Below, one piece after another: positions 22,637 to 39,073 of a DNA stretch of 64,000 bases. Location of the stretch: the NCBI GenBank assembly GCA_003116975.1, contig BGKB01000052.1, positions 248,001-312,000 on the forward strand, given 5' to 3'. Each line of letters starts with the position of its first letter. The stretch's first letter is position 1. The notes beneath the pieces were generated by a model. The model saw nothing but the letters and a program-made list of their open reading frames with translations. It searched no databases and was not told where the DNA came from. The DNA is from Aurantiochytrium sp. KH105 (Eukaryota > Sar > Bigyra > Thraustochytrida > Thraustochytriidae). The position numbers were made by a program, and so were the translations under genes.

Positions 22637-23728
22637 TCAGAGACTGGGACGATAGAGCTGCAGCGGAAAACTCTCTGTGATGATCGTGTTATCTCCAAGC
22701 GTGACCAGAAGATTGATCTCAAAGTCCACACGAAACTGCTGTGCCCGCATTGAAGCACACGTAAACAATTTCGGGAACGGCATATGGATAGGAATGGCCA
22801 TTTCGCGACAGACGTCTCCCGAGGCGATTTGCAGGCTCTGTATCTCGGTGGCTTCCTTGGCAATGCCTTCCGCGTACTCGATGGACTCGACGCGAACGAG
22901 CTGCAGATCGATCGATTGTATTGGCATCTCCGACACGTCTACCTGAACCTCGCCGGACAATGGACACGTGAGCGGGCATCGCAAACGATCAAGGTGACCA
23001 AGTACAGTAAACCGCGGGATTCGGCTGCGCTCCGCATCATCGACATTTTCCAGCGAGTCTGGCGTGATCTCAAATCGAACCGTTGGTTCCACGCTTCGTT
23101 CTGAAGGCGATCTGACTGTTGACACGTTTTCAGCGCTCGTGCTGCGATTGGAACCGCTTGGATTTTGAGAAGCACGAGAAGCGCTGACCTCCTCACCCTC
23201 ACCGGCCCCTGGGATTTCTACGATGAGCTCCTGCTCATGCGAAAGTGTCGATGACAAGAGACCTCGTGATGCCTCGACCCTCAGCACGTAGGCAGTGGTG
23301 ATGTAGACGCCATGGTAAGTCTCTTGAAGTCCAGGCTTCGAATCGAGCACAAAGCTGAAGGGAATGCTCGTTTCACCAGCTTGCACGCGCTTGTTTCGCG
23401 CCAGGATCATCTCCTTTTCCACGAAAATTTGCGGCTGGATCGAGCTGTAAAACGCTTCCAGCAGACCCACGTTCCGCGCGTTGAGGTGCAAACGGCTCGC
23501 CCCCTCGAGCACGAGCCGCACGCTGTTCACGTTCATCGACGCGTGGTGCGTCCTCACAACGACATCGCCTTCGACGCGATCTCCCGGCGCGAAAGGCCGC
23601 TCGCCTCGACGAAGGCGGATATCCACCGACGACGATGAAGCCCTCGCCGTCGCCGTCGTCGAGGACGACGCCGAGGAGACCACCGAGGAGGGCGACGCCG
23701 GGGACGAGGCGTACGAGCTCGTCTCCAT
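22637..23728 (-). CDS. VPS26C: VPS26C (DSCR3)-like Retriever/Commander subunit
   Basis: An arrestin-fold protein of about 363 residues (animal VPS26C is about 297). Retriever (VPS26C, VPS35L, VPS29) recycles endosomal membrane proteins independently of retromer. Family-diagnostic strings are LEAFYSSIQPQIF, ETYHGVYITTAYVLR, RFEITPDSLENV, LQLVRVESIEYAEG, EIQSLQIASGDVCREMAIPI and FPKLFTCASM. These match VPS26C better than VPS26A/B. There is a Ser-rich N-terminal extension and a Ser/Asn insert in mid-protein. The ATG at 23728 has a good context (A at -3, G at +4) and is preferred over the in-frame ATG at 23815, which would add 29 residues in poor context. Shares a divergent promoter with paralogue A. 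Confidence 0.88.
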   Translation of the reverse strand: METSSYASSPASPSSVVSSASSSTTATARASSSSVDIRLRRGERPFAPGDRVEGDVVVRTHHASMNVNSVRLVLEGASRLHLNARNVGLLEAFYSSIQPQIFVEKEMILARNKRVQAGETSIPFSFVLDSKPGLQETYHGVYITTAYVLRVEASRGLLSSTLSHEQELIVEIPGAGEGEEVSASRASQNPSGSNRSTSAENVSTVRSPSERSVEPTVRFEITPDSLENVDDAERSRIPRFTVLGHLDRLRCPLTCPLSGEVQVDVSEMPIQSIDLQLVRVESIEYAEGIAKEATEIQSLQIASGDVCREMAIPIHMPFPKLFTCASMRAQQFRVDFEINLLVTLGDNTIITESFPLQLYRPSL

Positions 23729-23849
23729 CCTCGCTCGCTCGCTCGCTCGCTCAAAGTTTGGCGGCTTGTAAAGTGGCTCAGGGATGCCCGGTGGGGAGGG
23801 AGGAGCGGCGAGCATAAAGTGAAGAATACGGCTCGGAGGCGCTATAAGT

Positions 23850-24466: not shown

Positions 24467-27466
24467 ATGGAGGCGACCTTTGAGGAAGAGTTCAAGCCGC
24501 GGTACCAGCGCAATAACAAGCGCAGCGGGCAGAAGAACATCCGCTGCTTCCCTTCGTGCACGCCTCGTGCTCACTCCTCGAGCGGATTCTGCGGGCAGCA
24601 GGTGACCGTGACCGTGACGAACCTGCCGACGGAGCCTTCGCCCGGCTGCGTCTTTCGCGCCTGGGGCGAATTCGTGCAATGCGGCGCCGATGTGTCGATG
24701 CAGCCGGGTCAAAAGATGAGCCTGCACGAGGCGGACCTCAAAGAACGCAACCGCGCCAATCCGCTGCGCGATTGGGTCCGAGGCGAAGTTTCCGAGCCTG
24801 AAGCAGGACAAATCACGATCATGGTGAATCGCAGCCTGCTCGGGTGGCATTACGGCTGGGTCTCGAGCAAACACACCTGCGATGCCATGCATTGCTTCAA
24901 GGTGCACCTCTTTGTCCTCGACCAGTCGCGCGAAGAGCTTTCGTACATGGGATCTGTCGAGTCGCCAAGCTTTCAGCTTTTCTCGCGCCGTCGCCAAGCC
25001 ATGATGATGGAGGCGCGCGAAGCCGTCAAACAGGCTGCTATTGAAAAGAAAAAGTCGCGCCCAGAAAAACGTGAAACCAAAGCCAATCTTGGCGATGTGG
25101 TACTGCCTCCAGCCAAAAAACGGCTGTGTGCTGACACGGCCATGCAAGTCCGCATACAGCGAAATCTCTGCTTGGACCGCATGGTGCGCCTCATGCTTGT
25201 GAGGAGCGGCTCCGGGACACGTAGCATGTATGACACGGATTACCAAACGGATTCCAAGGGAAAGCGCACCAATCCATGTGTCAGCTCTGGCAATCCGTCT
25301 CCTGGATCCAGCGCAGCAAGTGCCATTCTCAATGACATGATGAAGGCGCCCATCAAGAAACCCCCCACAGCTAGCGCAAAGCAAGCTATTAAGCGCCATG
25401 CCAAAGAAAAGTCATCCTTTGACAACATCAGCACAGATGCCACAGCACCTTCGTATCCACGAGATTTGCCTCTTTCTGGCATTGCCTCCGGGCCGGGCGC
25501 GCCTCCTCTGAAGCAGGAGTTCATTTCTCGTTCGTCGTTGCCAATGGATACCTCGGGTCCAGAGGATCCTTTTGGCGGAGACTGGCCTGATCTCGACTTT
25601 CGTCCCTTTGGCTCGAGCGGCTCGCCTTTTATCGGAATGGGCGGGGACATTCGCGTCGGCGAGGGTGTCGATGATGCAGAGTTTGACAAGCTCATCGAGG
25701 AAGCCCTTCTCGACCCGGAAATCATGGGAGGCGCTGACGGTGAAGAGGAGGCCAAGTCGCGTTCTCGCTCCGGGTCCCCTGCGCCAATGTTTCACTCGAT
25801 TCCAGCGCCAAGTGGAAACGCCGGACCTCCGCCCCCGCCCATGTCACTGCCGCCACAGTCACCCCAGGTGTCGAGAGGCCCTGCTCTCCGCACGCGCCGA
25901 GCGGCCAAGCACTCGGCCGGCGCTGACGGCAATGGAGTTTCCGCGCAGGCGTCGACAGCAAGCTCTTGGCGGCCCCTTGACTTTTCATCGTCTTCGTCTT
26001 CCTCGTCCTCGTCGTCCTCTTCATTTTATTCAGGTACGCCAACGCAGGACTCTCCTCGAGATATTGAGACGGCCCAGGCGGAGTGGGACTCGGGGTGCAT
26101 TTTCACGCGAAAACTCGACTATATCGTTCGCACACACGGATCCGAAAAGACAAAGGCCAATGCCGATAAGATTGTCGAGGTTCTGCGTAAACTTCCAGAT
26201 CGCCTCGTTTCGGTGAGCACGAATAGGCCCGATTTTCTTGCCTTTTTTGCCCGCTGGAAGTCTCCCGAGGGTATCCAGATGCTGCGCGAGCAGTTCGCGC
26301 AAGGCGAGGGTGGCCCGTCATCGTCAGGGCATGTCTCATCTTTCGTGCGCGACGAGGAGCTAGCGAAACATGCAGATCTGAGCGAGAGCACCTCCATCAG
26401 CCCCATGCGCTCCGTGTACGCGGAGATGCGTCTCATCTACCGTCGCGTCGTTCTCGATGCGCTCACTAGTCTGGGCGGGGATCCCGATGATTTTGTAGAA
26501 ACGATGGACCTTTGCGCCCGCTACGGGCTGTTGTTTGTCGACCCGTACTACCCACCTTCCAAGCGCGTGGCTGCTATGACGCACTTGGAGCTGTACAACT
26601 CCTTGGATAGGTTCCGGGAGCAGGATTTTGGTAGCTGCTCTGGCGAGTTCCGCAATGAAGCACAGCGCACGGCGTGGGTGAATGCCTACTGGACTGTGCG
26701 TCGGCGCTCGTTTCGACGACACTTTATCAAAGCTGTGCTGAACGAGGCGGTTGGTTCGAAGCTACCCCCCGAGGGCCGCCCTGTGCCGCCCGAGTTCGAC
26801 CTGACTGGCACATGGGTTCAGACTAGCACGCGTGACGATGCCGCAGAGGTGCATGCCTGGGGTCTCCGCGTTGGTGTAGGCGTCGGCAAGCTTTCGGCAC
26901 GCCTCTTTGAGCGAATGTGGAAGCGAATTACCTTGCGTATTAATTCGGCCGCCTTGCACCTGCAGGGTGAGCGCGTTCTTCTCGCCAATCCGGCTAAGCT
27001 TTTTCTTTTGGACCGCGTTCCGCGCAGACACACGGTGTCCAATCCGCTGCCCATGGCAACCTTTGCCCTCGAACGCACATACATTGCTTGGCTCGGGTTT
27101 GAAGGCTCAAAGGCATATCTGAATCTCATTTTCGGAGGACGAACTCGTAGTACGAGTTTCGAGGAGTATTCAAAGCACGCCAAGCTGGTCAACGACGAGG
27201 AAATTCGCCTCGAGGCGGAACAAATGCCAAAATTTACAGAGATGCGTATCGTCAAACGTTTGCACGTGGCTCAGGATCGGGAGACGATGACGCTCGACCA
27301 CAAGATTCACTTGTTCGACGACAAGTCCGCTCCCGGTTGGGATGACGCCGAAGCGCTGCAAAAACTCTTCGACTCTGGTCAAAAGACTTGCGTCGTCTCC
27401 TATTCGACAAAGTACATCAAGGTTTCTGATCAAGGTCTCGACGAGGTTCTCGAGCTCTTTGACTAG
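24467..27466 (+). CDS. Paralogue A of an unnamed three-gene family (Cys/His N-block, GTW C-block)
   Basis: 999 residues from the ATG at 24467 (CACCATGG). The N-terminal block (1-185) shares with B and C the strings YQRNNK, KN[IL]RC[FY]PxC (C27, C31), SGFCG (C42), WHYGW, a CDxxHC-like site (C138, H142, C143) and SPxFQxxSRRRQ. A basic linker (KKKSRPEKRETK), acidic and Pro/Ser-rich middle and Ser run (about 506-520) follow. A helical region comes next, then a C-terminal block beginning FDLTGTW near 778 and recalling a small lipid- or ligand-binding beta fold. The basic SRRRQ and linker allow nuclear or DNA-binding function, but I recognise no named domain. No signal peptide or membrane segment. 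AATAAA at 27541. Confidence 0.75.
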   Translation: MEATFEEEFKPRYQRNNKRSGQKNIRCFPSCTPRAHSSSGFCGQQVTVTVTNLPTEPSPGCVFRAWGEFVQCGADVSMQPGQKMSLHEADLKERNRANPLRDWVRGEVSEPEAGQITIMVNRSLLGWHYGWVSSKHTCDAMHCFKVHLFVLDQSREELSYMGSVESPSFQLFSRRRQAMMMEAREAVKQAAIEKKKSRPEKRETKANLGDVVLPPAKKRLCADTAMQVRIQRNLCLDRMVRLMLVRSGSGTRSMYDTDYQTDSKGKRTNPCVSSGNPSPGSSAASAILNDMMKAPIKKPPTASAKQAIKRHAKEKSSFDNISTDATAPSYPRDLPLSGIASGPGAPPLKQEFISRSSLPMDTSGPEDPFGGDWPDLDFRPFGSSGSPFIGMGGDIRVGEGVDDAEFDKLIEEALLDPEIMGGADGEEEAKSRSRSGSPAPMFHSIPAPSGNAGPPPPPMSLPPQSPQVSRGPALRTRRAAKHSAGADGNGVSAQASTASSWRPLDFSSSSSSSSSSSSSFYSGTPTQDSPRDIETAQAEWDSGCIFTRKLDYIVRTHGSEKTKANADKIVEVLRKLPDRLVSVSTNRPDFLAFFARWKSPEGIQMLREQFAQGEGGPSSSGHVSSFVRDEELAKHADLSESTSISPMRSVYAEMRLIYRRVVLDALTSLGGDPDDFVETMDLCARYGLLFVDPYYPPSKRVAAMTHLELYNSLDRFREQDFGSCSGEFRNEAQRTAWVNAYWTVRRRSFRRHFIKAVLNEAVGSKLPPEGRPVPPEFDLTGTWVQTSTRDDAAEVHAWGLRVGVGVGKLSARLFERMWKRITLRINSAALHLQGERVLLANPAKLFLLDRVPRRHTVSNPLPMATFALERTYIAWLGFEGSKAYLNLIFGGRTRSTSFEEYSKHAKLVNDEEIRLEAEQMPKFTEMRIVKRLHVAQDRETMTLDHKIHLFDDKSAPGWDDAEALQKLFDSGQKTCVVSYSTKYIKVSDQGLDEVLELFD

Positions 27467-27926
27467 ACGAGGACCTCGGGATGCCGTGCAGTCTTTACCA
27501 GGCGTGGACTGTCCCGCCATATGTTAGCCAAATCTCTTTCAATAAATGTATATCTTCTCAGTCATGGATGCTGCTTTCTTTTTCTTGCTTTCCTCCTTTT
27601 CCGGGCTTGCACGAGTCTCATTACCCTGTCATTCTTGAGCGTTGTTTACCAATTTTACAAAAATAGTGCGAAGACCTCTGCAAAAGCCAGGAAAAGAAGC
27701 AAAAGGACGAAGATAAGGCGAATCAAAGACAAGACAAGCAACGGAAAGGGTAAAATCAAAAACAAAGAAAAGCAGAGTTCATATCGTTTACATTTCGCAC
27801 CACCACATAACAAAAAAAGCGATCTCTCAAGGAATCTCGTGTGCGACGGCTACGTGCATGCACGCACGCATGCACGCACGCGCGCACACCCGTCCTTCCC
27901 CTCTTGATCTCACACCTTGCTCTGCT
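27467..27926. other. Convergent spacer between paralogues A and B
   Basis: 460 bases of 3' flank, AT-richer than the genes, with the poly(A) signal of A and a CACGCATGCACGCACG run near 27858-27890. No gene seen. Confidence 0.6.
27541..27546 (+). terminator. Poly(A) signal of paralogue A
   Basis: AATAAA 75 bases after the stop codon of paralogue A. Confidence 0.55.
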
Positions 27927-30644
27927 TTACAAAAGATCAAGAATCAAGTCCGTGTCCGTTTGGTTCAAATAGCAGCGCATAAATTTATGCCGCATTTTGA
28001 CCCCGGTAAACTTGTATTCCTGCGTGCCTGTGAGCGTCTGCAGCTCTGAGGTCTTGTCCATGCGCGGCGCCAAAGCAGCCCTTGGAAAAATGTGAAAGTA
28101 ATCCTCCATGGTCAAGTGCTGCCTGCTGTGAGAGATAATGAAGCGTTTGTGAATGCGCAGTTGAGGAACGTCACCCGGCTTGACATGTTGTTGAAAAAAC
28201 TTGGACAAGCGCTGGGCCGAGGCCGTGTTTGGCTCTCCGTCACGACGGCGAATCGTATCGCACGCTAGCTCACTGACCGCCTCCGCAAAAAGCGGCCCAC
28301 CAATCACGACATTGATGCAATGCTGCCCATCTTTCTCCACGGAAAGCCATCCGACAATGAGCTTGTTCTGCGAAAGAGGGTGGACTCCAGCATACCCGAC
28401 CACCATTGGCATGGACGGTCGCCAGCAATGCGGCTTGCCCTTGAGATTGGCAACGAGGCGCGGATCCGCGAGCAGCATTTGCTGCCCTCGCGAGGTAAAG
28501 GTCTCTTCAGTAATGTGGACCTCGATCTTGGAGAGCATTGTTGTGAACACGCGATTGTAAAATCCACCGACGTTCACACCAGCACAGATTGAAAGCAACG
28601 CGCCGATTCCCTCGCTGCCCTGTTTGAAACCAGGTTCATCCACAGGACCCAGGAGGATCCATGTGCCATTAATGTCCCAACCAGGCGCAACGGGGGGCTC
28701 GAGGTCTCGCGCCGAGGACTGTGCGCGCGTGCGCTGATCGGAAACGATGCGGTTGCAGACGATTCTGCGCATAATGCCTCGGCGCACGACCATGAGGTCC
28801 TTTGCATACTGGCACCGCTGCGTGTTATCTACAAATTTCCCCTCGCGAGACCCGTAGTCTTGTTTTTCAAAGTGGTCAAGCGACCCGTACAACTGCATAT
28901 GGATAAAGGCAGCAGCACGAGGCGATGGGGGGTAGTACGGGTCGGGCGTCGCGACACCATGCCGCGCTGCTAGATCCATGGACTCAATGTAGGGTTCCAA
29001 GCGCTGGCCCGTATTGACGATGGCTGACATCATAATGTTACGAAAGGCCTGACGCAGCATGCCATAGATGCTCGTCTCGTGGTCCGGATCGTCCACTTTG
29101 GTAGGATCGTATGTTCGGTCTTCGCGTTCTGCGGACCATACAAAGTTCACGTTACGCTCGCGTTCGATCTGCGCCTTGAGTCTCTTGATGCCTTCGGGCG
29201 ACGAATAGGAGGCCACGATATCGTTGAAGGCCTTGTTATTCTTGGCAAGTCGAATCACGCACTCGGAAATGGACTCGACGCCCTCAATGATCATGTCAAT
29301 GCGCTGCGGATCGTGAGCGTAACTTGATTCGCGCATGAGTATCTCGCGCAGCTGCTGCATACCCTCGGACATGTTGGTCACATTGCTGGGAGGGTTCTCC
29401 GCAGCTGGATTGGAGGGCGTAAACCCTCGTTTCAAGAACCCGAGGTCCACATTTGGGGCAGACCGCGCCATGCCAGCACCGCCGCGCGCCTCCTCGCCCA
29501 TCGAGGTATGTGGCAAAGGTGGAACTGGCATTCCATTGATGGTGATATTGCTGTTCTTGCTACGGCCGCCGCTGCCGCCGTGATTGATGTCGTTGTAATT
29601 GTTGTTTACACTCGGCTTGCCGGTATATGCAGGGTCCCAGAGATGTGGATCAACGTACTGCGGCCCGCTAAAGGCCTCGCTGACGTCCATTTCCAGACCT
29701 TGGCTGATGCCACCCGCTGCACTGGGACTGCTCGAGTCCATGGGACCGTGCATGGGGCTGTTGTTGTTTGTGACCTCATTCGAGACGTCCGTTGTGCGAT
29801 CTGTGTCGTCCCAGCACCCCTCATTGCCGCTCGCAAACTGGAATATAAAATAGGTGAGGCGATCCAGCGTGCGATTCAACATATTCTGCCGAGGGTAGTT
29901 GTCCATGAGAGTGTCCAGTATCTTGGAGTCCATGGCGGCTGAGGCGAGCTCGCGAAGCGGCATCGTCATGGACGAGTTGCTGTCTAGTGTAGCCATTGAG
30001 GGGGCTTTGGGAGCCTCCACTTTGGCTCGCTTCGCTGCCGGAGGTGGAATTGGGATATCGTCCCCGTTGCTGCCCGCGTCGGCGGCCTCCTCCTTGAGAA
30101 CACCCCGCTGTCTCCTGCGGCTGTAGACCTGGAAGACGGGGGAAGACACGGAGCCAACATAGACAAGGTCAGGACTGTCGGCCTTGAGCTTGAAAATGTA
30201 GGCGCGAAAGCAATGGTAGCTGTCGCACGAGTGTTTGTTTGCGCGCCATCCGTAGTGCCAACCGCCGAGTTGTCTATTGAAGGCGATGGAGAAGCTGTTA
30301 TCGTCTTGCAAGCGGACGTCGCCAGCAAGCCAGGGCAGCTTGGGTAGCGCTGCAGTGCGCTCCTTGGCCTGGGCCTCGGCGAGCGGGAGGGTTGTGTTGG
30401 GGCGCATCAGCTCCTTGGTCCCGCAGATGATGAACTCACCGTAGGCCCGGTACTCCGTCTCTGCGTCAAGAACCGGGAGATCTTGTACGATGCAGGTGAG
30501 CGAGGTGCCGCAGAACCCACTATCACGATGCCCGCTCACAGAGCATGTGGGGTAGCATCTCAAGTTCTTCTGGCCCCCGAACTTGTTATTGCGTTGGTAC
30601 CGCTCCTTGAAGGACTCCTTGTCGACCCATTCTGCGCGCAACAT
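27927..30644 (-). CDS. Paralogue B of the unnamed three-gene family
   Basis: 905 residues, ATG at 30644. The N-terminal block carries the shared strings FKERYQRNNK, KNLRCYPTC (C30, C34), SGFCG (C45), FNRQLGGWHYGW, HSCDSYHCF and GSVSSPVFQVYSRRRQ. A PPAAKRAKVE string just after is a plausible nuclear localisation signal. The middle is Asn/Gly/Ser-rich. The helical part (from EGMQQLREIL, about residue 455) and the C-terminal block (WDINGTWILL near 655) align with A and C through DPYYPPSPRA, LYGSLDHFEKQDYGS and RRGIMRRIVCNRIV. It is closer to A than to C (shared PYYPPS, F.EQD[FY]GS). It converges on A across 460 bases, so A and B look like an inverted local duplication. Confidence 0.75.
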   Translation of the reverse strand: MLRAEWVDKESFKERYQRNNKFGGQKNLRCYPTCSVSGHRDSGFCGTSLTCIVQDLPVLDAETEYRAYGEFIICGTKELMRPNTTLPLAEAQAKERTAALPKLPWLAGDVRLQDDNSFSIAFNRQLGGWHYGWRANKHSCDSYHCFRAYIFKLKADSPDLVYVGSVSSPVFQVYSRRRQRGVLKEEAADAGSNGDDIPIPPPAAKRAKVEAPKAPSMATLDSNSSMTMPLRELASAAMDSKILDTLMDNYPRQNMLNRTLDRLTYFIFQFASGNEGCWDDTDRTTDVSNEVTNNNSPMHGPMDSSSPSAAGGISQGLEMDVSEAFSGPQYVDPHLWDPAYTGKPSVNNNYNDINHGGSGGRSKNSNITINGMPVPPLPHTSMGEEARGGAGMARSAPNVDLGFLKRGFTPSNPAAENPPSNVTNMSEGMQQLREILMRESSYAHDPQRIDMIIEGVESISECVIRLAKNNKAFNDIVASYSSPEGIKRLKAQIERERNVNFVWSAEREDRTYDPTKVDDPDHETSIYGMLRQAFRNIMMSAIVNTGQRLEPYIESMDLAARHGVATPDPYYPPSPRAAAFIHMQLYGSLDHFEKQDYGSREGKFVDNTQRCQYAKDLMVVRRGIMRRIVCNRIVSDQRTRAQSSARDLEPPVAPGWDINGTWILLGPVDEPGFKQGSEGIGALLSICAGVNVGGFYNRVFTTMLSKIEVHITEETFTSRGQQMLLADPRLVANLKGKPHCWRPSMPMVVGYAGVHPLSQNKLIVGWLSVEKDGQHCINVVIGGPLFAEAVSELACDTIRRRDGEPNTASAQRLSKFFQQHVKPGDVPQLRIHKRFIISHSRQHLTMEDYFHIFPRAALAPRMDKTSELQTLTGTQEYKFTGVKMRHKFMRCYLNQTDTDLILDLL

Positions 30645-31098
30645 TTTGCTTTTCTTTAGTCACGCGAGTATGCGAGCAAATGAGCGAAATAGAGGGAAGG
30701 GGAGAGAGAAAGAGACACCAAGCTCCTTCTCGCAAGGGCCCCTCGCTCGCTCCCGCCTGCGCCGCCTCGCCAAGGGCCCAGAGCTCGCGTCGAAGTCGAG
30801 ACGAATGGACGGATGACCTCGGTGAATTCGATGTCGACCGCCGCCGGGAGCCCGAGATGGTTGCCTTCTTCTCCTCCCCCGTCGCAACCTGCGTTGCAGG
30901 TCGGCACGGGTCCGCGTCGGTCTCCGCCGATGGGTTCCCGCGGGGCGAGCGAGCGTGCGAGCGAGCAAGCGGCCGTGCGTGCGTGCGTGCGTCTCCACTC
31001 GTCCAGGTCTGTGATCAGTCTTTCTTTCTTTCTTTCTTTCTTTGTTGCGGACGAGACCTTGTGTTTTGTTCTTTCTTTCGTTCTTATCGTTCGTCGTC

Positions 31099-31140
31099 GT
31101 ATAGTACTATATCTAGTACAATAGGTACTATAGGCCTAGG
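31099..31140. promoter_or_regulatory. AT-rich palindromic patch with TAGGCCTAGG
   Basis: TATAGTACTATATCTAGTAC, then AATAGGTACTATAGGCCTAGG, in otherwise GC-rich sequence about 460 bases upstream of the ATG of paralogue B. A very similar patch (ACTATACTATACTAGGGCC) lies between RIC8 and OSCA near 61666. Candidate core promoter element; role inferred. Confidence 0.35.
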
Positions 31141-31183
31141 CGCGTTCTTTTTGCCGGCCCCGTCAGCCAGGCCTCGCGCTACG

Positions 31184-31235
31184 CACTTGCGCCTCCCCAT
31201 TCCGCACTTGCGGCCCTGCGATAGTTCACTTGCAC
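31184..31235. promoter_or_regulatory. CACTTGCGC motif cluster (three copies)
   Basis: CACTTGCGC at 31184, CACTTGCGG at 31205 and CACTTGCAC at 31227, evenly spaced by 21-22 bases, about two helical turns, in the upstream region of paralogue B. They lie 45-130 bases from the AT-rich TATAGTA patch. Confidence 0.45.
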
Positions 31236-32476
31236 GGACCTCTGTCCCAGGCTGCGTTCCGTCAAAGCCTCCCGTTCCACTTTCGTTCTATTTTATCCCA
31301 CTCGCGCATGGTCTAGCCGCGGAAGCGTTCCAATCCACCGCCGGGCCTCACCCCGGCCTCCGTCCGCCCCTTCCCGCAGCCCGACTTCGCACGCGCGCTG
31401 TAGGGAGATGTGCGCAGAGTGTCGCTGCATGGCATGGGATAGCTGCGGGGCTGCTGTGTGGCCATCTTGCGACTGTGTATACACTGAACAGGCAAAGAGC
31501 TTCGTCGAGACTCGGAACGTTGGTTCGAGGAAGGGCAGAGAGCCCCTTCTCGGCCGCACCCCTGGCGCTGGGCTTCGCCGTTTTCCCGCCTCGATTCTGG
31601 CGGCAGTGCAGCAATCGCTGCACCTTCTGCCGCTGTCGGAAGCAGGACTCGGCTTGTCTAACCTTAAGATTCACAGGCCAATAATCCGCTCCCGCGCATT
31701 CTGTGGACCGTCCGTTCCCCCCCCCCCTCTTCTCCCGATCTCCCGATCTCGCGTTCCGCCGCCAACCACACCATCAAAGGCGATCGCGACCGTCTGCGGG
31801 TGTCAACAGCCACTGGCAGCAATCACGTCTGCAAGTGCCGACTCCGACCCGTTCGAGCTTCACAGCAAGCAAGCAACACCAACCGGGAGCTGAAGCCGGC
31901 CAGTCAGCCAGCCAGCCAGTCTTGAAGGAAATTGAAGAATCAACCAAGCAAACATTCATGCAAGCAAGCAAAGGCAAAACCGCCAGCACAAACAAACGAT
32001 CGAATGACACCGAGTTTGCATCGATACGAGGACTATCTGCGCCGGTGCCGCGCGCGGATTTTTCGGGCGATACGCGCAGCGACGTACAAGCGCAGGAGGG
32101 ATCTACCTTGTCCCGTGGCCTGCGAAACCTTTTCGTACCCTGAAACATCCGTCGCGACATGGATGGAAAGACCCGGGAAGGAGATCCTGGTACGAGGAAC
32201 GCTTCGCCGTCGGAGTCCAGGCGGAGGCCGTTGGGGGGGACATTTGAGGGCCTACCCCTACTGCGGAGGGGATCGTCATCATCATGATTATCGCCGTGAG
32301 AGCGACTTTGCCACGAAAAACTAGGACTAGACCTAGTGTGCGACGAACAACGCTTTGTGGTCTGACAGGCTGAGAGCAAAGACGTGACCTCGATTCGGCT
32401 CATGGGTATCATCAACATAGTATGGACCGATGCGGAGGAGATCCCAATGTGGAAGGAAAAAATAAGCTTGCGATCG

Positions 32477-32836
32477 CACGAGCAAGGAATCAAGCCATAA
32501 AGACTTGAACGTCGTTCATGTTACTTCAACTTCAGTATCTCGAGATACCAAAGAAAGACTTGCACAGGGCTGAATCGCGAATCTTCGAAATTAGAGACGG
32601 AGGTGACCCACGAGCCTTGAGATACAGCAAACAGCAGAGGCAGGTATTGCAAGCCACACGAGCAAGGAATCAAGCCATTAGGACTTGAACGTCGTTCATG
32701 TTACCTCAACTATAGTGTCTCGAGATACCAAAGAAAGACTTGCGCAGGGCTGAATCGCGAATCTTCGAAATTAGAGACGGAGGTGACCCACGAGCCTTGA
32801 GATACAGCAAACAGCAGAGGCAGGTATTGCAAGCCA
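32477..32836. repeat. 180-bp tandem duplication, two copies
   Basis: Unit 1 is 32477-32656 and unit 2 is 32657-32836, head to tail with exactly 180-base period. They differ at about 7 positions, all in the first 105 bases; the last 75 bases are identical. The unit starts CACGAGCAAGGAATCAAGCC and ends TATTGCAAGC plus CA. No terminal inverted repeats or coding frame are evident. Confidence 0.9.
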
Positions 32837-34639
32837 CGGGGACAAAGCTAGCGGCGCGACAAATCTCAGGATGCTGTCAGGCAATACGATAAGCACACAG
32901 AGAGAAGCTCGCGCAGCGGATCATTACGGTCAGAAAAACCAAAATGACAACACAAGGCAACAAGATGTGACTTTCCTCTTCGCCCCTGGTGAATTCATCT
33001 TTGGGCAACAGCGAGTGTCCGGAAATCATGATGTCCAAAAGCCCTGTAAGCAATTGGGGAAATTTGCGTCATCCTTGAGTCGATTCATCCATCCTCACGA
33101 TTGCTCGAGTTCGATTGAGATTTCAAATTTTAAAAAGAAAAAGACAGCTAAACGCGTGATTTAATGAAGAGCCTTTGGCTTTGTGCTATGTCTCAAGGCA
33201 TTGAAAGATACTTCCGCTCGGGTCTTCAACGAATACGGGAAAGCAGTGACGTTTTAAAAGCCAGGAAGTTTGTGCTAGTACGCGGGACTGCGCCAGAGTG
33301 CCTGCGTAAGGTTGCCTGTTCAAAACCAGGCCAGGTTTCCGGACACAAAGCTCAGCTCGTCTCACTCCTGCGTGGCCTCTCAAGCAATTTTCAATCCATA
33401 TCTTCGGAGGAACGCAGGTTACATCTCGCAAATCGAACCTCAGTCATGGCAGGGCCAGCTCTGTTCCGTGCGCATTCACTGTTATGCTCGCTTTTACTGT
33501 CCCGTTCATAAAACGCATTCTTTCACCGGCCAGCCTCTTTCCCTCCAGGGTAAGGACCGAAACAAGATTCTGTCCAGAACGCACAGCTCCGCATGAGCCC
33601 AAGATTTAGACTGGAGAAGGCCATCACGAAGGCAATCTCCGGCGCGATGGCTGACGCGGTCGACCGCAAAATGACCGGTGTACTTTGCGGAGGTCTGCCT
33701 TCCAGTTCCGTTCCCATGCCCTATGTTCGACCTGCCATTGGCTACTGCAACCAGCGCCTTGCCTTCACTTCCCAGCGAACGGGCCCAGCTCGCCGTACCT
33801 CTTCTCGGCCAGGTTACGCACGTACTATGCCACGGCACCATCCCAAGTCACGACTCGTCGGCCACTTAGTTCCATCCAGCGCGCAAGCAAAAGGAAAGCA
33901 AGACGAGACTCGCAGCCTCGGCACGCAGTCTCACTTTTGCGCAAACAGCCCATGCTCGCCATCCGCGCCACCATTTCCTCCTCCCTCCTCGTGCTCGCTC
34001 TCGCCATCGCTCTCGCCATCGACACCCGCGCGACAGAAAGACAAACAGAACGTCGAGGGCGGACGCAGCTGCGCGCGTCGCTCCTAGTTTTTCCCTTGTT
34101 CCTCGCTGGTCTCCGCACAAGACCGTGGCCCCGGGTCCGGTGCGGGCGCGGATTGGTCTGCAACATGGGCGCGGGAGTACAAGACGCGGAGAGAGCGAGG
34201 GGAGACGGGAAGCGGTGGTCGACGCGTCTGAGCCTGGAAGCGAGTCTCGCGAGGGCGCCAGTTCCTCAACGACGGAGTCGCGACGCGAGCGAGGCGAGGC
34301 GAGGCGAGGCCGCGGGCACTGCCGCCGAGCCCGCGCGAGCGCGGAGCGCAGGGGCGCGGAGCCCGGCCGTGCGCGCGAAGAGGCGGACGGAGCCGTGGTC
34401 GTGGACGTGGACGTGGACTTTGGGCGTGCGGGAATCCAGTTTGAAAATCATCGAGGGGTTTGAGCCGCTGCCCTGAGCCGAGGGAGGACCTTGGAGCTGA
34501 GCCGGCGCCTGGAGATTGGACAAGGAGACCCAGCAAGTTGCCAACGTGAGCTCCGCGCGAGGCAGGAGGACGTCGAGGCTACGTAGACGAAGAAGACGAC
34601 CCGAAGTGAACGAACGGGTCGCGCGAAGAGCGACGAGCC

Positions 34640-37435
34640 ATGAGTCTTGAGCCCATCCACGGCGAGTTCCTGCAGGGCTTTGATAGCGTGTACCAGCGCA
34701 ACAATAAGAACTCGCGGTGCAAGAACCTGCGGTGCTTTCCGCACTGTAGCATTGCGCCCGATGGACAGACGCGACACGTCAAGTCAGGGTTCTGTGGGTC
34801 GTACATCAAGCTTCACGTCTCGTCAGGGCTGGCGAATCTCAGCAACGGGGACTACGTTCAGGTCTTTGGCCAACTCAATGTAGCCGACGCGCCGAACCAA
34901 ATGCACGTTGGTGACAAAGTACCTGCCAAGAAAATTGATGCACAGGCCCGGTCCCCGGAGAACCCTCTCAACAGCCTCATTCAAGGTGAAATCACAAACG
35001 ACGGGGATCGCGGCACCGTCGTCGTCTTTAATCGCGCGCTGCAAAGCTGGCACTACCCATGGGCAAGCACGAAAACCACGTGCGATAGCTTCCACTGCTT
35101 CGAGGCGCACTTTTATTTGCAGCGGGCAAACGATGACAAAGACCTCATTTTTCTTGGGTCTTTGCGCTCGCCAGCCTTTCAGGTTCTCTCGCGACGCAGA
35201 CAGGCCAGTCTTCAGCAAAAGCAAAGCGCCTCCAAAAGCGGCGTTTCGTCCACTCAGTCCGCTCAAAGCGGTCGGAAACGCGCGGCGCCAGGCAACCAAG
35301 GCGTAGACCAAGTTGATGCCGCGGGAGCCAGCAAAAGACAAACCAAGGTTGTTGACTGGATGCGAATGGCCCAATCTGACAATTCCCCCGAGAAATCGTC
35401 GCCCCGGGACCGCGTCAATGCAAGTCTTGGGCCAAGTCCAGCAAAACAGGAAATACCAAATCCGCCTGGGGTTGCTCTTTCATCGCACAACAAGCCCAAG
35501 GAAGCAGTTGGAATACCGCCCTTGGGTTCCTTGTCTCCCGAGTATGAAAAAAATCGCATGCTGGACCGTCTATTAATGTTTGTCATCTTGTATGGCACGA
35601 TATCGAATGCGACTGACGAAGACACATTTTCAATGGATGCCGAAGGTGCGAGCTCAAACGACAGTGCTCTCGTCTCAGAAGGTTGGGGGCAGCCATTCAC
35701 ATTTGCCGCAAATATGGGGAGAACGAGTTCGAGTAGCAGCGCCAGCTCGAGCTCGAGCTCGAGCTCCTTGACTAATAATCAATGGTCACGCGGCATTGTG
35801 GACAATAGCTTTGGGGCGGCTGCAGCCACTGCCGCGGCACAAGAAAAAGACTGCCTCGACGACCTGGAGCTGGATGTCTTTCTGCGGGATCTCGATTTTG
35901 ACCTTGGCGTTGGAGGTCCAGGCGTAGAGACCTCCGGCGACGACGCGCGCAGCACTAGCAGCTCAACTAAGCCGAGCGAGCCAAGCGAGGGAATGCGCTG
36001 CCTGGAGAAAGTTCTTGTGCGGCACGGCGGGATGCAACCTGCCGCGGCGCGAGACATTATTGATAGCCTCGACAGCCTTTGCGTGGTGATGCTCAAGCTG
36101 GCCAAACAAGGTCTGCCAGAGCACGATGAAATGGTCCGCTATTGGTCTGCGAACCTGCCCATGCTCAAGGCCCAGATCCAGCGTGAGAAAGAAGAGTACT
36201 CTTGGTCGATGGAGCGCGAATACGGGACATACGTGCGGGGCAGGTCGAACAACGACGCGGAGAATTCCATCTTTGGCGAGATGCGCCAAACGATGCGCAA
36301 CTATGCAGAGCGCTCCCTCAATGCGGCCGGCCTGGACAAGGCCCAGATCTCGCGCGCAATGCACTTGGCAGCGTGCTCCGGTCTTCTCAAATTCGAGCCC
36401 TTTCGCCCCCCGCCGTTGGAAATTAGATCAAAGCTCAAGAGCGCTTGCGCAGTCTTTCCAAGCATTTCTGCAGCGGATATCAAAGCCCTCGTGGACGATG
36501 TACCCGCGGAATACTTTTCCAATGAGGCGCAGCAAGTTGTCTTTTGTAAAATGCTGATGCGCGTGCGACGTGCGACCTTTCTTCGGGCTCTTGCCAATCG
36601 AATCGTCGAAGACCAGCGTATCCGTGCACGGCTTTCACGCAGAAAGCGTCTCCCTGTGCACCCAGACTGGAACATCAGCGGTCGTTGGATGAAAGTCAAC
36701 TCCAAAGGCATGGACTCTAAGTCGCGCGACCTTGCGCTTCTGATCGGCTCCTTTCGGGGCCTCACCGTGAGCGACTTTACAGCTGAAATTCTTCGGTGCT
36801 CCTGGGATTGCATCCGCGTTTCCATAAGTTCTGACTTGCTCTGCGTTCAAGGAGTTCCTCTGCTTTTTTCCAACTCACTCTGGGCGACTCCCTTTGGCGA
36901 AGTCACCAAGATGGGCATGCAAGAGCCACTTCCTTTGGGACCTATCATGGAGGAGCGATTCATGAATTGCTGGACCTCACGGGAGCAAGACGGTACCGCT
37001 GTGGTGAATATTGTCATGGGCACGGCGCCTGGGCGCGTGGAACCCAACAATTCTGCGTTTTCGGAGGAGCATCCAGAGACTCGAGTGAGTCGAGGACTTC
37101 CCTTCCACGACGACGAAAAAGGCCTTTCGGAGCGCGTTACAGCTGCTGTAAACCTGCAGCGAACAATTCGAAACTTTATTATTGAAAACAATGGCATGAA
37201 CGCTAGTCCTGTGGTGCGCGTCTTCATGCGCTTTTGCAAGCGCCCTGGCGAGATCTCGAGTCTGAACATGACTCGTTCCATGTACTTTTTCGCCAGTGAA
37301 AAGGATGCGCCACCAATGGACTCTGTGCCGGAGCTTATGAAGCTTCCAACTGGATGCTTCAAGGCGCTTCAGTTCTTGGCCGGCGAGATCACTTATATTT
37401 CCGCGGGTGGAAGAGGGGACGGCTCTTGGATCTAA
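34640..37435 (+). CDS. Paralogue C of the unnamed three-gene family
   Basis: 931 residues, ATG at 34640. The N-block again has YQRNNK, CKNLRCFPHC (C32, C36), SGFCG, FNRALQSWHYPW, TTCDSFHCF and GSLRSPAFQVLSRRRQ. The middle has a Ser run encoded by AGCTCGAGC repeats (about 35727-35766). An acidic, Leu-rich stretch (DDLELDVFLRDLDFDLG) there resembles an acidic activation segment, also seen in A (DWPDLDFRPFG); that reading is inference. The helical region and the C-block (WNISGRWMKV near 676) align with A and B, but C is the most divergent: it lacks the PYYPPS string and has extra C-terminal sequence. Same family, probably the older duplicate. Confidence 0.75.
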   Translation: MSLEPIHGEFLQGFDSVYQRNNKNSRCKNLRCFPHCSIAPDGQTRHVKSGFCGSYIKLHVSSGLANLSNGDYVQVFGQLNVADAPNQMHVGDKVPAKKIDAQARSPENPLNSLIQGEITNDGDRGTVVVFNRALQSWHYPWASTKTTCDSFHCFEAHFYLQRANDDKDLIFLGSLRSPAFQVLSRRRQASLQQKQSASKSGVSSTQSAQSGRKRAAPGNQGVDQVDAAGASKRQTKVVDWMRMAQSDNSPEKSSPRDRVNASLGPSPAKQEIPNPPGVALSSHNKPKEAVGIPPLGSLSPEYEKNRMLDRLLMFVILYGTISNATDEDTFSMDAEGASSNDSALVSEGWGQPFTFAANMGRTSSSSSASSSSSSSSLTNNQWSRGIVDNSFGAAAATAAAQEKDCLDDLELDVFLRDLDFDLGVGGPGVETSGDDARSTSSSTKPSEPSEGMRCLEKVLVRHGGMQPAAARDIIDSLDSLCVVMLKLAKQGLPEHDEMVRYWSANLPMLKAQIQREKEEYSWSMEREYGTYVRGRSNNDAENSIFGEMRQTMRNYAERSLNAAGLDKAQISRAMHLAACSGLLKFEPFRPPPLEIRSKLKSACAVFPSISAADIKALVDDVPAEYFSNEAQQVVFCKMLMRVRRATFLRALANRIVEDQRIRARLSRRKRLPVHPDWNISGRWMKVNSKGMDSKSRDLALLIGSFRGLTVSDFTAEILRCSWDCIRVSISSDLLCVQGVPLLFSNSLWATPFGEVTKMGMQEPLPLGPIMEERFMNCWTSREQDGTAVVNIVMGTAPGRVEPNNSAFSEEHPETRVSRGLPFHDDEKGLSERVTAAVNLQRTIRNFIIENNGMNASPVVRVFMRFCKRPGEISSLNMTRSMYFFASEKDAPPMDSVPELMKLPTGCFKALQFLAGEITYISAGGRGDGSWI

Positions 37436-37646: not shown

Positions 37647-38801
37647 TTAAAGCTTGGCGCGGTAGCCAGATTCCTTGAGTTCCTTGTTGCGAAAGCTGCG
37701 CTGCATACGTTTGATGTTCCAAGCGTACAGCGCCTGGGTTCCAAAGGGCACGTACTGGTCAACGACATTGGTCAGCGTCCCACCGGCATACGTGAGTGCA
37801 CGTCCCCAGTAAAACGGGCCCTCGTCTTCGATTCCAGTGCCTGACATGTAGTCATTGCCTGTCATGTACTGAGCAAGCTGGTAGAGATACCTCTGAAGCA
37901 AGGTGACCGAGAACCCAGACTCTGATGCCGCCTTTTCGGCGACACCATCAAGGATCTCGCGCGGTCCAGAGCCCATGGGCTTGGCCTGATCGAGCATGCT
38001 CGCCATAAAGAACTCCTGTTGATCCAAGAGGGAATCGGGCAAGAGATCGGCCTCAATACCCAGAAGATAGCCAGCGTACTTCCACATGAGCATAAATGAT
38101 GCTGTGTCACTCGCTGAAAGCGAAATACCAACGTGCCGCAGCGATCTCAAGTTGACGTAACCAAAGAGGCCCAGTGTAATGGCCAAGTCATGCTGATTGA
38201 TGGCCTGCTCCGTGGGGTGCTTAAACTTTCCCGTGGCGGACAAGTGATGCCGCAAAGCCGCATGCAAGAGCCTTGTGCGTACGAGCGTATCGTGGGCCTC
38301 GCCACCAGGCTCGAGCTCGCCAGGAAGGACCATTTTGCCGATCATAAAAGAGGTTTCCTGCACGCGCCGTGAGCTGTTGGGTCCCCCAAGCTGACCCATC
38401 GAGGTCACGATGGCAGCCTTGCGAAACATTGCACCACCGACCAAGGCGGAAAATAGAGAGACTGCCATGAAGGGAGAGTACACGGCAATGAGTTCTTGGC
38501 CGCGTTTGATCTTGTCGAAATTCATCCACGCAGGTACCGTCCACGCCTCTTGAAGAAAGGCCTCGCAGGCTGCCGAGTCTGCTCGATGCTCTTTCACCTC
38601 TTTCAGCAAATCCGACATGTTTGTGATGCGGCCATTGATCTCCACGAGCGCGCGAATGCACTCGTCTGCGGCCGGATCGCCCATCGTCCGCCATGCCTCG
38701 AAGCGCTCCTGCGAGAACCGCGTCGTGTACCGGAGCTCTTCCTTGGCCGGAATGCGGTCCAAGGCCATCACCTTGGCCGCGTACTCGAGGTCGTGCTGCA
38801 T
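37647..38801 (-). CDS. DUF2236 / MpaB-like (latex-clearing-protein superfamily) oxygenase
   Basis: 384 residues from the ATG at 38801. The central part shows the ER-bound oxygenase MpaB/B'/rubber oxygenase pattern. It has an AVYSPFMAVSLFSALVGG hydrophobic helix, RVQETSFMIGK, then HDTLVRTRLLHAALRHHL, the YVNLRSLRHVGISLSASD segment and the MLMWKYAGYLLGI signature. Characterised members are haem-dependent (MpaB cleaves a prenyl chain in mycophenolic acid synthesis; Lcp cleaves rubber). Arg and His residues in the RTRLLHAALRHH segment are candidates for the haem pocket, by analogy. The actual substrate is unknown. No signal peptide at this start. It converges on paralogue C with a 211-base gap that contains TTTATT (AATAAA on its strand) at 37586-37591. 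Confidence 0.7.
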   Translation of the reverse strand: MQHDLEYAAKVMALDRIPAKEELRYTTRFSQERFEAWRTMGDPAADECIRALVEINGRITNMSDLLKEVKEHRADSAACEAFLQEAWTVPAWMNFDKIKRGQELIAVYSPFMAVSLFSALVGGAMFRKAAIVTSMGQLGGPNSSRRVQETSFMIGKMVLPGELEPGGEAHDTLVRTRLLHAALRHHLSATGKFKHPTEQAINQHDLAITLGLFGYVNLRSLRHVGISLSASDTASFMLMWKYAGYLLGIEADLLPDSLLDQQEFFMASMLDQAKPMGSGPREILDGVAEKAASESGFSVTLLQRYLYQLAQYMTGNDYMSGTGIEDEGPFYWGRALTYAGGTLTNVVDQYVPFGTQALYAWNIKRMQRSFRNKELKESGYRAKL

Positions 38802-39073
38802 CTTTCCTCTCGGCTCGCCGCCGCTTGATGTTGGCCCTGCTGCTCTTTTCCCCTCTCGCGCGATTCCGTTCTGCCGCGCCGTCCTCTCTCTGTTTTGCCA
38901 AGACGGACTTTGGCTTCTGTCTTGGCTTTTGGCTTTTGGCTTTTGGCTTGGCGCGCCAGATTGCGCAAGGCCCCAAGTCCAGGTCGCGCGCAATCTGACT
39001 GCACGGCGGCCGGTCGAGCGGCTCGTTGCTTTTGGCTCGGACGATCAGTCGACTCGCTGCGCGCCTCGTCGGG

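Follow-up and report, generated by a model that had tools for sequence, protein, structure and literature searches.

We analyzed a 64,000-nucleotide stretch of the genome of Aurantiochytrium sp. KH105, a marine protist rich in oil (contig BGKB01000052.1; the whole stretch is referred to as the window), and describe three neighboring genes in it, A, B, and C. Their proteins are predicted to combine an N-terminal beta-sandwich domain with a C-terminal barrel of the fatty-acid-binding protein (FABP) type. We propose that A, B, and C are ligand-responsive transcription regulators of an expanded family, and we put the probability of this reading at about 0.5. A role as transcription regulators appears somewhat probable, and regulation by a ligand is put forward more tentatively. 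Under this proposal, we infer metal, DNA, and ligand binding, dimerization, nuclear location, and control by the ligand.

Judging by their sequences, A, B, and C are intact paralogues with homology far above chance. An open reading frame (ORF) check and a tblastn search of the genome with B confirm an earlier note, made from the letters of the window, that had taken them for full-length homologues. B matches A with E values of 1.9e-50 (residues 8-190) and 3.0e-38 (residues 445-874), and C with 6.8e-31 (residues 10-190) and 1.6e-29 (residues 401-783). The open frame of A extends upstream of the assigned ATG. The motifs that the note had listed in the first 185 residues are seen in the alignment of the three proteins, and the C-terminal block begins with [DN]x[STN]G[TR]W in each (residues 778, 657, and 678 of A, B, and C, respectively). 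B is identical over its full length at 99% of positions to FCC1311_058902 of Hondaea fermentalgiana (a thraustochytrid, labyrinthulomycete stramenopiles) and at 63% to the database protein P0002.

The AlphaFold2 model of B residues 1-200 has a mean local confidence (pLDDT) of 86.4 and a global confidence (pTM) of 0.81. Its closest solved folds are transcription-factor beta-sandwiches of velvet, T-box, NFAT, and STAT-like kinds, and the top of the fold-comparison list is dominated by DNA-binding domains, suggesting that the N-terminal domain is probably a Rel/velvet-type sandwich. Runt, given as a relative of velvet in one paper (PMC10845976), is absent among the 50 fold-comparison rows listed, which carries no weight either way. 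Profile alignment of the domain with velvet using hhalign was not significant (2 of 60 permutations reached the score), and alignments with Rel and T-box stayed within the permutation range; sequence membership in velvet, Rel, or T-box was therefore rejected.

The C-terminal block very likely adopts an FABP-type fold, as judged from models. The predicted structure of the B barrel has 10 strands and two helices between strands 1 and 2, as in FABP/CRBP (iLBP) proteins, with a helical insert between strands 7 and 8. Aligned to FABPs with hhalign, the barrel profile gave probabilities of 66.3 and 63.7 (E values of 5.5e-5 and 6.7e-5), reached by none of 150 permutations each; small FABP sets scored weakly. 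Scores against avidins and lipocalins were lower than against FABPs, and the N-terminal columns alone, used as a control, scored 10.4. Alignment A3 scored 22.4 against FABPs (probability 1.8%) with the match in the barrel columns, and since A3 holds full-length proteins, it is no negative control. The barrel has no Pfam lipocalin/FABP match, including in 9 barrel blocks, and no notable PDB sequence match (best E value 0.13). In fatty-acid-binding FABPs, the carboxylate site is formed by an Arg in strand 8 and an Arg-x-Tyr in strand 10. An Arg is invariant among 12 of 12 family members in the strand aligned to FABP strand 8, and further barrel residues are conserved over these members; the Arg-x-Tyr of strand 10 is not evident by eye in the barrel sequence alignment (A6). 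The barrel of C is divergent: compared with the B block alone, it gives an E value of 0.085, and it is absent from the profile matches at E 1e-3.

Both predicted folds fit the combination suggested in the earlier note, a beta-sandwich DNA-binding domain with a C-terminal ligand-binding fold, and the functional side of that suggestion stays putative.

To define the conserved residues, we compared 46 N-terminal domains, from 19 loci of this genome and 27 database proteins (B and P0001, and L044 and P0012, are near-duplicates). In B numbering, Cys30 and Cys45 are conserved in 46/46, Cys34 in 45/46, and His39 in 43/46, the other three carrying a His at a neighboring position by eye. His144 is invariant, and positions 140 and 145 are Cys in 29/46 and 10/46, respectively. 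The idea of a metal site in the earlier note was right in kind, and its five Cys and one His hold within A, B, and C, but conservation over the 46 domains replaces them with a Cys-Cys-His-Cys set in one loop (YQRNNK...KNLRCFPxC...H...FCG) plus His144. A regular expression for the loop matched 45 of the 46, and the sole miss was C, owing to its longer spacer. The divergent loci L053 and L054 lack the NNK of YQRNNK (YVRT, then a gap) and keep the loop. Many of the invariant basic and aromatic residues lie in the first 46 residues, around residues 129-144, and in the closing strand, and the net charge of the domain is positive in 42/46.

The middle of the proteins (residues 191-430) is acidic, as previously described, in B (net charge -10) and C (-7), and not in A (-1). 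Strings resembling a nuclear localization signal (NLS) follow the N-terminal domain in 19/46 proteins, compared with at most 11 in 300 shuffles of the tails. Two observations weigh against reading them as support for nuclear regulators: C has no such string, and the same string is equally common in the remaining C-terminal parts (20/46). We therefore regard the NLS-like strings as weak evidence.

Selection was assessed between the two haplotypes. The omega values are 0.066-0.078 for A (two overlapping pieces), 0.061 for B, and 0.218 for C in a partial comparison covering the first 696 codons. Nonsynonymous and synonymous differences in B number 0 and 14 in the N-terminal domain, 14 and 14 in the middle, 0 and 17 in the helical part (codons 421-655), and 1 and 22 in the barrel. 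The three folded modules of B are strongly constrained, and the middle is not.

The family is larger than the cluster. The genome searched (76 Mb, 367 contigs) looks diploid, because almost all family members recur as near-identical copies on a second contig; the cluster itself is present twice, and B in the second copy, on contig C62, is 98% identical. At E ≤ 0.001, full-length B has 45 genome matches and its N-terminal domain alone has 47. When contigs are paired by their positions and open-frame lengths, which is our reading of the matches, the count is ~19 loci per haplotype, 18 of them partnered and one (C28) without a partner. The three paralogues are indeed adjacent, as the earlier note had it, but they are 3 of these ~19 loci and not an isolated trio. 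With the 16 non-cluster loci represented by one copy each, an N-terminal profile built from A3 (A, B, C, and database proteins, A and C being seeds) matches 19/19 loci (E values from 3e-67 to 1.2e-19). A C-block profile built from alignment A5, which includes A, matches 7/19 at E 1e-3, and C is the eighth barrel-bearing locus through its full-length match to B.

Genome searches with the barrels of L050, A, B, L044, and L040 returned 9, 7, 5, 8, and 10 matches, respectively (E ≤ 1 for L050 and ≤ 0.1 for the others), all in open frames that also carry the N-terminal domain, by contig and frame length. A search with the barrel region of P0007 found only P0007 and P0027 among 395 candidates, and P0027 also has the N-terminal domain. 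A widespread stand-alone barrel was rejected, as these five own-genome searches, at single-sequence sensitivity, returned only fused copies.

At least 27 database proteins carry the N-terminal domain, with named sources including Hondaea, Mucochytrium quahogii, and the oomycete Achlya hypogyna. The 'mmetsp' labels of P0002, P0007, and P0011 denote a transcriptome collection; relatives are therefore transcribed. The Achlya hypogyna protein (P0014) ends in a strongly hydrophobic stretch, membrane-anchor-like by eye, and some family members might be membrane-tethered. In a tree of the 46 N-terminal domains, A, B, and C fall together with P0001-P0004 into a single group of 7 rows (support 80/93); several branches are long, and the grouping is weak evidence for local duplication. 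A fourth, divergent member lies ~82-83 kb beyond C on C52/C62, and two family loci lie ~62 kb apart on contigs C10 and C81. An origin in viruses was rejected, as none of 96 matches to two peptide patterns in viral contigs was a relative.

Table 1. Features of genes A, B, and C, in positions of the window.
Feature	Position	Strand	Details
Gene A	24467..27466	+	999 aa; intact ORF from ATG to stop; homologue of B
A N-terminal beta-sandwich domain	24467..24997	+	Residues 1-177; alignment and profile (A is a seed); model made for B
A Cys-Cys-His-Cys loop	24545..24592	+	C27, C31, H36, C42; conserved columns
A NLS-like basic string after N-terminal domain	25043..25069	+	Pattern only
A helical region (approximate)	26114..26791	+	Aligned to B
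A FABP-like barrel	26798..27463	+	Residues 778-999; profile E 2.1e-44 for the ORF (seed row itself); hhalign of A5 profile to FABPs
Gene B	27927..30644	-	905 aa; intact ORF from ATG to stop
B FABP-like barrel	27969..28688	-	Residues 653-892
B helical region	28707..29366	-	Residues 427-646; AlphaFold2 model
B NLS-like PAAKRAKV after N-terminal domain	30018..30041	-	Residues 202-209; pattern only
B N-terminal beta-sandwich domain	30105..30644	-	Residues 1-180; AlphaFold2 model
B Cys-Cys-His-Cys loop	30510..30557	-	C30, C34, H39, C45; conserved columns
Gene C	34640..37435	+	931 aa; intact ORF from ATG to stop; homologue of B
C N-terminal beta-sandwich domain	34640..35203	+	~Residues 1-188; alignment and profile (C is a seed)
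C Cys-Cys-His-Cys loop	34733..34795	+	Longer spacer ahead of His
C helical region (approximate)	35927..36655	+	Aligned to B
C FABP-like barrel, divergent	36671..37432	+	Residues 678-931; full-length match to B up to B residue 783

The cluster is adjoined by a Vps26-like gene (22637-23815, minus strand; weak arrestin similarity; PF03643, E value 9.1e-26) and by an ORF (37647-38993, minus strand) with an ER-bound oxygenase/rubber-oxygenase catalytic domain (PF09995, E value 1.9e-12).

In the mechanism that we propose, the N-terminal domain would bind DNA through a beta-sandwich of the velvet, Rel/NFAT, T-box, and STAT kind. The loop peculiar to the family probably binds zinc, and together with the closing R-R-R strand it probably touches DNA. 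Next comes a variable middle that looks disordered, followed by the conserved helical region, which perhaps serves dimerization or coupling. The barrel may bind a small hydrophobic molecule (a fatty acid or a carotenoid-type compound, for example) and would relay its binding to the other parts of the protein, by analogy with the ligand-binding domain of nuclear receptors, which has an unrelated fold.

A barrel that is purely structural, serving dimerization or protein docking in DNA-binding regulators, is unlikely in our estimate. The lack of an evident Arg-x-Tyr site would fit such a role, as would the strong divergence of the paralogue barrels (24-34% identity in local matches between loci) and the long insertions of the A, B, and C barrels relative to the shorter ones in the family. 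The conserved barrel residues, including the invariant strand 8 Arg, and the strong purifying selection on the B barrel speak against it, although both also fit a structural role. Just as unlikely, the N-terminal domain could bind RNA, chromatin proteins, or another partner, making these proteins nuclear or cytosolic adaptors with a lipid-type cargo. The prevalence of DNA-binding domains among the closest folds, the positive charge of most N-terminal domains, and the clustering of many invariant basic and aromatic residues argue against adaptors.

We also considered a nitrobindin-like heme barrel, with which the proteins would respond to NO or to redox state, a role proposed for human THAP4. 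THAP4 has an N-terminal zinc-finger DNA-binding domain and a C-terminal nitrobindin all-beta barrel (PMC6275384), an order of parts like the one seen here. Such a heme barrel is very improbable, as no PF08768 match was found in the three full proteins, the 9 barrel blocks, or the genome (the genome-search control matched in one genome), and the barrel alignments show no invariant His.

The preferred reading, ligand-responsive regulation of transcription, has a more specific form that we consider rather doubtful. The ~19 loci per haplotype, at least 8 with a lipid-binding module, may be thraustochytrid lipid-gated transcription factors, a Rel/velvet-type domain fused to an FABP barrel, through which fatty acids including docosahexaenoic acid (DHA) would directly set how lipid and life-cycle genes are transcribed. 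DHA is produced industrially from thraustochytrids, and FABP-type barrels are usually found in animals. If the lipid-gated reading holds, the family would parallel nuclear receptors in function while consisting of unrelated parts, and ligand-gated transcription factors would have been assembled independently of them. It would provide a direct route from lipid to transcription and an engineering handle, show that the Rel/velvet-type DNA-binding sandwich also occurs in stramenopiles, and add a non-animal instance of the FABP-type barrel. Both folded modules are small, and each can be tested on its own.

Searches for known systems are consistent with the earlier view of an unassigned family: Pfam, NCBIfam, and PDB gave no significant match that would place A, B, and C in an established enzyme or structural family. 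Rel/NFAT, T-box, STAT, and p53 have no Pfam match in the three full proteins or 28 members, and velvet (PF11754) is not among the 21 families matched by any of the 28 at E ≤ 10, a listing from which HMMER filters drop most matches above ~0.1. These 21 scattered families (one member each, best E value 0.0075) were taken as chance, as was a HepT-like match (E value 0.14). No Pfam match to the C4 zinc-finger or helical ligand-binding domain of nuclear receptors was found in A, B, and C at E ≤ 1, nor one to the THAP domain or nitrobindin barrel in the three full proteins, the 9 barrel blocks, or the genome. By the sequence definitions tested, the proteins are outside the velvet, Rel, nuclear-receptor, and THAP4 families. 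No paper on this family or domain combination was found in the open-licence literature, judged by titles and abstract openings.

Compared with the fungal velvet regulators (VeA, VosA, and VelB), the family differs in its Cys-Cys-His-Cys loop and FABP-like barrel, and no such barrel is known to us in velvet proteins. The DNA-binding domains of Rel/NFAT, STAT, T-box, p53, and CP2/LSF resemble the predicted N-terminal domain in overall sandwich and chain span, with the sequence signal absent for Rel and T-box. Human THAP4 shares the order of parts, whereas both of its domains belong to other families. Unlike in FABP/CRBP proteins, the barrel here comes from a stramenopile and is joined in one protein with a putative DNA-binding domain. 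With nuclear receptors such as PPAR and RXR, only the proposed logic would be alike, namely a lipid-type ligand domain fused to a DNA-binding domain.
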